This document shows, piece by piece, positions 21,311 to 24,436 of a stretch of 64,000 bases of DNA (position 1 is the first letter of the stretch; every line of letters begins with the position of its first letter). Source of the stretch: Natronobeatus ordinarius (GTDB taxonomy: Archaea > Halobacteriota > Halobacteria > Halobacteriales > Natrialbaceae); the NCBI RefSeq assembly GCF_024362485.1, contig NZ_CP101456.1, positions 1,798,001-1,862,000 on the forward strand. The letters are read 5' to 3'. The notes beneath the pieces are model-generated. The model was not told the origin of the DNA. It ran no database searches and saw nothing but the letters and a program-made list of their open reading frames with translations. A program made the position numbers and the translations under genes.

Positions 21311-21660
21311 GCGATCACCCGCACGTTCGTTCCGTCTGGATTCTCTTCGAGCAGTTGCTCGAGCGGTACTGTCTCGCCGACCTGATCGATCTTCGTCTCC
21401 GCCGACGCCGAAAAGTCGACGGCGGCGACGGTGACGTTCTTCTGGAGGGCGCCCGACCCCAGCACCTTGCCGGGGACGACCACCGTCTCGTCTTCGCGTG
21501 CGTATCGTTCGATCCGCCCGAGGTTCACTTCGGCGTGACTCGCTCGGGGCTTCTCGAGGCGATCAGCGACGTCGCGCCAGACGGTTGCGTCCATCTCGCG
21601 CGAGGTCGACTTCAGCTCGGCGATGAGATCGTTGAGCCTCGGATTCGTTTTGCTACTCAT
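21307..21660 (-). CDS. rpl18e: 50S ribosomal protein L18e (eL18)
   Basis: 117 aa. [29 protein letters not shown] and [20 protein letters not shown] match archaeal L18e. It is the first protein gene after tRNA-Leu. Its leader contains a perfect hairpin (21689-21707) and the tRNA 3'-end copy (21721-21742). Confidence 0.97.
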
Positions 21661-21720: not shown

Positions 21721-21742
21721 TGCAGGGAGCAGGATTTGAACC
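21721..21742 (-). repeat. Second copy of the tRNA-Leu 3' end (att-like)
   Basis: 22 bases identical to 21847-21868, the T-loop, 3' T-stem, 3' acceptor strand and discriminator of tRNA-Leu. The rest of a tRNA is absent: the partner T-stem strand does not match. It lies 104 bp downstream (in transcription sense) of the intact gene. Duplicated tRNA 3' ends are the normal footprint of integrase-mediated insertion. Confidence 0.75.
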
Positions 21743-21846
21743 GTCGGGAGACGGTCGGCCTCGCAAGTGCTCGGCCGCTGCGACTCCCGTGGCTCAAATC
21801 TGCACGTTCCATTTTCACGGCTCTCCCGTTCGGTCGAGCCGAAAAA

Positions 21847-21931
21847 TGCAGGGAGCAGGATTTGAACCTGCGGACTCCTACGAGACAGCGCCCTGAACGC
21901 TGCGCCGTTGGCCAGACTTGGCTATCCCTGC
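21847..21931 (-). tRNA. tRNA-Leu (CAG anticodon)
   Basis: 85 nt on the minus strand. The acceptor GCAGGGA pairs with TCCCTGC, with discriminator A at 21847. The anticodon arm is CAGCG-TTCAGGG-CGCTG, with CAG as anticodon. A long variable arm (type II tRNA) is present, and the T-arm is GCAGG-TTCAAAT-CCTGC. No intron is seen and CCA is not encoded. It lies between rpoD and rpl18e, as in the halobacterial S9 operon where it is co-transcribed. Confidence 0.95.
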
Positions 21932-22050: not shown

Positions 22051-22800
22051 TTACAACTGTACTGCTTCTTCGAGTTCGGCTGCGCGCTGCTCGAGCGAGT
22101 CGACCGCGCGCAGGACCAGTTCCTCGACCGTGAACGAGCCGTCGGTCTCGACGTGGAAGACGAAGGCGTTCGGGACGTCCTCGACGCGGACTTCCTTGCC
22201 GGGGTACCGCGTGGCGAGGTCGTGGCCGAACTCACTCGTCGGAACGAGGTCGCCGTCTTCTTCGATCACGCCGCGGACGATCTGGGGCGGTTGTTCCTCG
22301 AACTCCGGCAGATCGTCGCCGACCGTCACGCGCTGGAGGTGACGGTAGCCGACGGCGACGCCACCTTGGTGTTTGGCGTGTTCCTTGCCGCGCTCTATGA
22401 CCGCGTCGGCCTCGGCCTCGAGGCGCTGGCCGTCTTTGAGCTCGATGATCGGAACGTTCTCCTCGGCCGGCTGGACGAGGTCGTCGCTCGAGACGAGGTC
22501 GCCGGAGTAGGCGGTTCCCGGGCCCTCGACGTCGATCGAGAGGGTAACGACGTCGTCCTCCCGGAACTCACCTTCGGGGGGCGTCGTCAGCGGGACGAGC
22601 CCCAGTCTGAGCGCGAGTTGTTCGTCGAACATGACCGACGAGTTCTCGACGAACCGAACGGTGTCGATGGCCATCGTCGGCACGTCCGCGACCATCGCCC
22701 GGCGAATGCCGTTGGCGAACGCGGGGGTGACCCCGCGAATGAGAAACCGGGCCTTGCGATCCCCGCGTTCGACGAACTCGACGTCGTACTCCTGGCTCAT
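22051..22800 (-). CDS. rpoD: DNA-directed RNA polymerase subunit D (Rpb3/alpha-like)
   Basis: 249 aa. [24 protein letters not shown] and [13 protein letters not shown] are the conserved alpha-family blocks. The middle domain that binds an Fe-S cluster in some archaea is retained in length, but the whole protein contains no cysteine, so no cluster can form. It follows rps11 by 3 bp. Nucleates polymerase assembly with RpoL, N and P. Confidence 0.96.
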
Positions 22801-24204: not shown

Positions 24205-24277
24205 GTGTCGTGTCTATGTGCTGGTATACGCGCGGTGTGAAACGCCGGCCCCAACGTGGCCGGCCTGCGTATTCCGA

Positions 24278-24361
24278 CGTCGTGGCGGGGATTCGAACCC
24301 CGGAGGCTTGACGCCACATGGTTAGCAACCATGCGCCTTGGGCCTACTTGGCTACCACGAC
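24278..24361 (-). tRNA. tRNA-Ser (GCT anticodon)
   Basis: 84 nt. The acceptor GTCGTGG pairs with CCACGAC, with discriminator G at 24278. The anticodon arm is CATGG-TTGCTAA-CCATG, reading GCT. A type II variable arm is present and the T-arm contains GGTTCGAATCC. It is the first gene of the S13-S4-S11-RpoD transcript, with a TATA box 75-85 bp upstream. Confidence 0.95.
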
Positions 24362-24436
24362 ACCGTGTCTATCGTCGCCCATCTGGACTCGGGGACGGAT
24401 CCCCTACACGTATCGCAACAGAACCTACCCGGGTGG

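Follow-up and report, generated by a model that had tools for sequence, protein, structure and literature searches.

Small noncoding cassettes with a tRNA 3' end and an inverted T-arm lie behind many tRNA genes of Halobacteria

In this study, we analysed a window of 64,000 nucleotides of Natronobeatus ordinarius DNA (the window being the whole stretch that was read) and found, behind its tRNA-Leu(CAG) gene, one member of a family of gene-less cassettes that occupy a large share of the tRNA genes across an archaeal class. In the salt-loving archaea examined, cassettes stand behind about a third to 60 % of tRNA genes. We consider it probable that they are non-autonomous units whose insertion and loss depend on site-specific recombination in the T-loop of the tRNA gene, carried out by a recombinase acting in trans.

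Mobile DNA lands at tRNA genes more often than anywhere else. With dozens of sites in parallel in each genome, the cassettes are a natural setting for studying how recombinases choose among these genes and how mobile DNA adapts to each tRNA. They also bear on the question whether sites used as folded single strands evolved outside the integrons of bacteria, and they explain tRNA-fragment repeats that would otherwise be read as provirus scars. Should the mechanism prove to be that of an ordinary integrase acting in trans, the cassettes would be a version of something already known.

Results

The tRNA-Leu(CAG) locus

The locus reads on the minus strand in the order rpoD (22800..22051), tRNA-Leu, spacer, copy and rpl18e (ATG at 21660), and its features are collected in Table 1. 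A first-pass annotation of this DNA had reported that 22 bases of the tRNA 3' end recur beyond a 104-bp spacer, and both the identity and the exact extent of the spacer were confirmed. One further base matches beyond the 22 bp on the 21720/21846 side, and the aligned repeat family D2 spans 28 nt at the locus with 93 % identity; chance cannot account for a 22-bp exact match 104 bp away. The copy had also been described as lacking the pairing strand of the T-stem. This is correct in the tRNA register, but in the predicted fold the copy does have a partner, as its first (T-arm) part forms the right arm of stem-loop SL2 and pairs with the inverted T-arm that lies in the spacer as the SL2 left arm. 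The predicted RNA fold of 186 nt of the locus has an energy of −85.1 kcal/mol (z = −6.05), and with DNA parameters the locus hairpin reaches z = −3.8. Open reading frames in the spacer are limited to overlapping mechanical ones, which encode no integrase of the cassette's own, and no terminal inverted repeats bounding the 104 bp were seen. The tRNA-Ser(GCT) gene of the window (24276-24362, minus strand) is without a cassette and is followed by the next gene after about 70 bp.

Table 1. Features of the tRNA-Leu(CAG) locus, in positions of the window
Feature	Position	Strand	Basis
tRNA-Leu(CAG), intact, the target	21847..21931	-	ARAGORN; Rfam tRNA 47.6 bits
Duplicated block of tRNA-Leu(CAG), its 3' end from T-loop to discriminator	21847-21868		
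Noncoding cassette, 104 bp, from tRNA to copy	21743..21846	-	precise-junction absence in relatives
Stem-loop SL1, TTTTTCGGCTC...GAGCCGTGAAAA, beginning directly at the tRNA 3' end	21812..21846	-	fold
SL2 left arm GCAGATTTGAGCC, the inverted tRNA T-loop and T-stem 3' strand	21791..21803	-	
Conserved type-A core of SL2, AGTCGCAGC...GACCGTCT	21749..21785	-	alignment A1, covariance model R1
Distal copy of the tRNA 3' end, GGTTCAAATCCTGCTCCCTGCA	21721..21742	-	exact repeat

It had been proposed that relatives without the stretch would point to an attachment site, and many relatives indeed have an empty site at the orthologous locus, in which the tRNA ends in ...CTCCCTGCA and continues directly with TCACTTCT. 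The same annotation had read the copy as the footprint of an integrase and offered two origins for it, of which the precise empty sites favour a tiny element, whereas the scar of a large element does not agree with the att core found at such elements here (see Discussion). The contrary case, an arrangement common to all relatives, fails because the cassette is patchy, also within genera: of 121 genomes from the same family, 20 have it in full and one more has it in part. A conserved leader of the L18e operon, the other reading that had been allowed for, is likewise set aside, as this module also stands behind dozens of tRNA genes that have nothing to do with L18e.

Anatomy of the cassettes

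BLAST with the locus interval gave matches elsewhere in the same genome and in relatives. The first ten matching places inspected all adjoin tRNA genes (Ser, Leu, Phe, Arg, Asp and Gly) and share the same plan, each with a copy that belongs to the tRNA of that place. An alignment of 22 SL2 sequences (A1) retains the core listed in Table 1 and shows compensatory changes at 8 of 13 predicted pairs. We extracted 216 cassettes from 200 distinct tRNA loci, a sample that is biased since the loci were fetched largely because of their matches. In this sample arrays hold one to five cassettes, and a cassette together with its copy has a median length of 126 bp. The identity of the copy to its tRNA is 0.97-1.00 from the G of GTTC across most of the acceptor strand, drops over the last few bases and reaches baseline past the tRNA end; on the 5' side of GTTC one base still reaches 0.76, and identity is near background from there on. 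Within the copy, conservation is lowest at the last four bases of the acceptor strand, which suggests that the T-loop and T-stem part is kept for a reason of its own. The left arm of SL2 is also specific to its target: across 173 cassettes its match to the T-stem of its own tRNA is 4.47, against 3.60 (sd 0.06) when permuted.

SL1 opens with a T-run immediately 3' of the tRNA, and compensatory pairs are found in it across genera (CGGCTC/GAGCCG, CGACTC/GAGTCG and CAGCTC/GAGCTG). Core types other than A are also present, at times within one array, and some arrays contain perfect tandem duplicates. The tips of SL1 and SL2 show, family-wide, a recurrent CGARC-GNA-GYGAG, with possible tandem G.A mismatches. 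Partial tRNA duplicates were observed in a tRNA-Phe array of genome G016 (L063, cassettes 2 and 4) and in a tRNA-Leu array (L177); here other hairpins, without an inverted T-arm, stand between the T-stem 5' strand and GTTC, possibly as a second type of insertion.

Position behind tRNA genes and occurrence across genomes

After removal of the weakest partial matches and of hairpins matched a second time on the opposite strand, 43 model matches remain in the window's own genome, 37 of which lie at most 700 bp downstream of a tRNA gene on the same strand, where 0.4 % would be expected by chance; 28 of the 46 tRNA genes bear cassettes. Two of the six matches outside this distance have been moved off their tRNA by integrase-bearing islands of 19-20 kb, and the match at 3994685 follows a tRNA-Pro that is called by ARAGORN and missing from the Rfam list. 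The same placement holds elsewhere, with 86 of 92 strict matches in named genomes at most 500 bp downstream of a tRNA gene, and an upstream tRNA on the same strand for 29 of 30 matches fetched class-wide.

One of the islands, 19 kb in length, lies between tRNA-Arg(CCG) and its cassette (G000:C1 1436479-1455233, L358); it encodes a PF00589 integrase at L358:11894-13021(-) and has the 15-bp att core CCCGTCGCGCCCGTC at both ends. The other, of 20 kb, adjoins tRNA-Arg(TCT) (G000:C1 295958-316249, L379 and L356) and has integrases at 297065 and 315399. At its distal end, two cassettes follow what appears to be an incomplete tRNA-Arg copy that a hairpin splits at the boundary of the T-loop.

A covariance model built from the SL2 alignment (R1) has matches in 287 of 292 Halobacteria genomes, which represent 74 of 77 genera. 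In a sample of 197 genomes of the phylum, 34 have a match and 32 of these belong to the window's own order; the other two are not Halobacteria and have single weak matches (E 0.002-0.006). A strict pattern searched over 84,980 species was found on halobacterial contigs only. Strict patterns had no match among 2.9 million viral contigs, and a loose pattern gave chance matches only, with one weak partial and no full model match among 80 viral loci. Phages had no meaningful match, and these searches revealed no free or viral form of the cassette. The only plasmid match is weak, a single cassette-like core on a megaplasmid of Natronorubrum bangense (NZ_CP031306.1 823153-823210, L382) with no annotated feature beneath it. 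Rfam scans gave nothing above threshold but tRNA and rRNA.

Gain, loss and constraint

Two congeneric species were compared over 40 orthologous tRNA loci, at which cassettes were detected in 16 and 15 cases, respectively. Twelve of the 40 loci differ in detected cassette number, which is an upper bound on gains and losses because some are decayed copies (for example L429/L430 and L455/L456); at several of the differing loci the flanks are 85-93 % identical. An extra cassette next to the tRNA is seen at a tRNA-Arg locus (L437/L438) and at L461/L462, and at tRNA-Phe (L435/L436) a different cassette is present beside a flank of 91 % identity. At tRNA-Val (L443/L444) the breakpoints fall in the left arms and not in the copies, and ordinary recombination between tandem repeats would also yield this pattern.

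Within arrays of at least two cassettes, mismatches are more numerous in the distal copy than in the first (0.62 vs 0.15; 16 vs 4 arrays, P = 0.012). Insertion of new cassettes beside the tRNA would produce this gap, to which selection acting on the tRNA may also contribute. When cassettes were compared between genomes, the closest counterpart of a cassette stood behind a tRNA of the same species in 78 of 187 cases, with 8.5 expected, which agrees with a choice of site by the tRNA end. Moves from one tRNA to an unrelated one within a genome seem rare.

At the tRNA-Leu(CAG) locus the cassette is about 90 % identical between genera, and rpl18e third codon positions are 58-70 % identical in the same genera (pairs including the window's genome), so that the cassette may be held in place by selection and not only by mobility. 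Twelve full-length versions of this cassette show compensatory changes at 6 of 39 pairs, and this covariation indicates that the structure is under selection, whether in a mobile pool or in place. Two genomes with no model match, G050 and G287, have no tRNA-end copy of any type at the 42 tRNA loci examined, at 98-99 % completeness, and their same-genus sisters have 13 (G062) and 10 (G199) model matches. This all-or-none presence, with none in one genome and at least ten in its sister, suggests a trans-acting factor.

Discussion

The fixed GTTC boundary of the copies coincides with the beginning of the T-loop, whose 7 nt are framed by the T-stem dyad. A short segment between dyad arms is a form in known use by tyrosine recombinases. 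The T stem-loop is moreover one of three tRNA target regions listed for these enzymes (PMC8371274). From the anatomy of the cassettes we infer the following course of events. A unit would run from the tRNA 3' end (GTTC to the discriminator) through SL1, the inverted T-arm and the core to GTTC again. A crossover inside the T-loop (G^TTCRAAT), within the 7-8 nt between the T-stem dyad, would join the cassette to the tRNA gene, whereby the 3' end carried by the cassette would restore an intact tRNA and the original end would stay behind as the distal copy. New cassettes would enter beside the tRNA, so that arrays would grow from there, and recombination between repeats would remove or exchange them. 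SL2 is the likely recognition structure, either as a folded single strand or as a cruciform; when one strand folds, its base stem would turn the T-loop double-stranded, as happens in integron attC sites. The enzyme acting in trans would probably be a tyrosine recombinase.

No recombinase could be linked to the cassettes, as none contains an integrase and none of the integrases found was assignable to them. PF00589 genes are present in 14 of 14 genomes searched, cassette-free ones included, and their number does not tell cassette-bearing from cassette-free genomes. By blastp with fetched genes, a family of tyrosine recombinases of about 200-240 aa (for example G000:C1 624017-624583) was found in two cassette-bearing sisters and was missing from the cassette-free sisters. 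Its members comprise the catalytic domain and no other, and have GGW following the HDLRR box. As a candidate mobiliser the family was rejected: widespread as it is (241 of 292 Halobacteria genomes), it has no member in cassette-rich genomes such as G011, G094, G123, G015 and G035, and four of the five genomes that give no model match do have one, G050 having a weaker match only. The 19-kb island at tRNA-Arg(CCG) is not the obvious mobiliser either, as its att core is shorter than the cassette block.

Two other accounts deserve a fuller comparison with the site-specific exchange that we favour. The first is transposition that duplicates its target site. A Cas1-like integrase or a transposase would make staggered cuts at the T-loop and at the tRNA end, and the 21-22 bp copy would be the duplicated target of a casposon-like or IS200/IS605-type element and not an att site carried by the cassette. 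A copy that equals the local tRNA whatever its isotype, and a duplicated block with fixed ends, are what such a process would produce, and casposons are known for targeting tRNA-Leu 3' ends. Haloarchaea also contain PATEs with near-terminal palindromes (PMC3119063). However, target-site duplication leaves unexplained that the SL2 left arm, which lies inside the element, is tRNA-specific as well; cassette lineages track tRNA species across genomes, and the 104 bp are without visible terminal inverted repeats, and we therefore regard transposition as unlikely. We are slightly more doubtful still of a host-functional RNA or DNA structure (a 3' trailer processing signal, a terminator or a tRNA-gene insulator) that has spread by homologous recombination or gene conversion. 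It would agree with the covarying stems, with the T-run of SL1 directly after the tRNA, with the position of nearly all copies downstream and on the tRNA strand and with a cassette that is more conserved at the locus than rpl18e third codon positions. An RNA role does not explain, however, why the acceptor 3' strand should be duplicated precisely as far as the discriminator; core types differ inside one array, the locus is without the cassette in about 100 of 121 related genomes, and in the two nearly complete cassette-free genomes it is absent from 42 of 42 tRNA loci.

The remaining accounts were suggested by the locus on its own. Integrase islands do adjoin tRNA genes in this genome, as at tRNA-Arg(CCG), which might make the copy appear as the scar of a departed integrative element or provirus. 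Yet the core of that island measures 15 bp and is not the 21-22 bp GTTC block, the island lies beside and not around a cassette, the genome contains about 40 related copies of the structured repeat to which the spacer belongs, and excision would leave no such hairpin. By the comparison of att cores a large-element scar is rejected as a general account, and we think it very improbable. That the tRNA 3' end was merely duplicated on the spot, next to a chance hairpin, could be entertained as long as a single locus was known; hundreds of instances with the same architecture refute it and leave it with almost no probability.

We found no description of the cassettes in the open-access literature, and a review of archaeal tyrosine recombinases (PMC8371274) was found to make no mention of hairpins or non-autonomous elements; judged by the open-access literature, a gene-less, tRNA-linked cassette family is apparently undescribed so far. 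The claim to newness rests on the anatomy and reach of the cassettes, and several known systems share part of the anatomy. Elements with tyrosine integrases (SSV, SNJ2, pT26-2 and P4-type; PMC8371274) likewise duplicate a tRNA 3' end, restore an intact gene and have empty sites. As in tRNA-targeting elements, the cassettes combine a tRNA-end repeat and an intact tRNA with empty sites, but they have no integrase of their own, and unlike these elements they are about 105-125 bp long, noncoding, arrayed and provided with an internal inverted T-arm. The att core of SNJ2 is 13 bp only and lies at the acceptor end (PMC8371274); the 15-bp core of the 19-kb island resembles it, whereas the cassette block, with 21-22 bp from GTTC, is not of this 13-15 bp acceptor-end type.

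Casposons and PATEs or other MITEs (PMC3119063 for PATEs) are, like the cassettes, small palindromic or tRNA-targeting mobile DNA of archaea. The cassettes do not have their layout of terminal inverted repeats and target-site duplication, and they differ in their strict tRNA tropism and target-specific internal arm; neither a Cas1 casposase nor the terminal inverted repeats of a casposon were found in or around the noncoding cassette. In Escherichia coli, the distal repeats of tyrT, associated with rtT RNA, are tandem repeats downstream of a tRNA gene, and each repeat includes the tRNA 3' end. They are confined to a single tRNA and a single type of unit, without a family of inverted T-arm hairpins.

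Integrons consist of attI and of folded single-stranded attC sites, which are recombined by the integrase IntI. Haloarchaeal cassettes differ from integron arrays in being gene-less, in having the tRNA T-loop as their putative fixed site and in having dozens of such sites per genome. Their arms read GATTYGAAC ... GTTCRAATC and do not follow the R boxes of attC (RYYYAAC ... GTTRRRY); the base after GTT/ATT in the SL2 arms is C in 22 of 22 copies of alignment A1. In both systems, tandem units stand behind one fixed site, each unit closes with an imperfect palindrome whose base arms are conserved, whose middle is mismatched and whose tip varies, distal repeats look older and GTT stands at the putative exchange point. 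It is conceivable, and we propose it tentatively, that Halobacteria have an integron-like system of their own, in which a recombinase exchanges single-stranded SL2 hairpins with tRNA T-loops and the arms co-evolve with each tRNA. If this were true, many tRNA genes would serve as attachment sites that collect arrays of noncoding cassettes.
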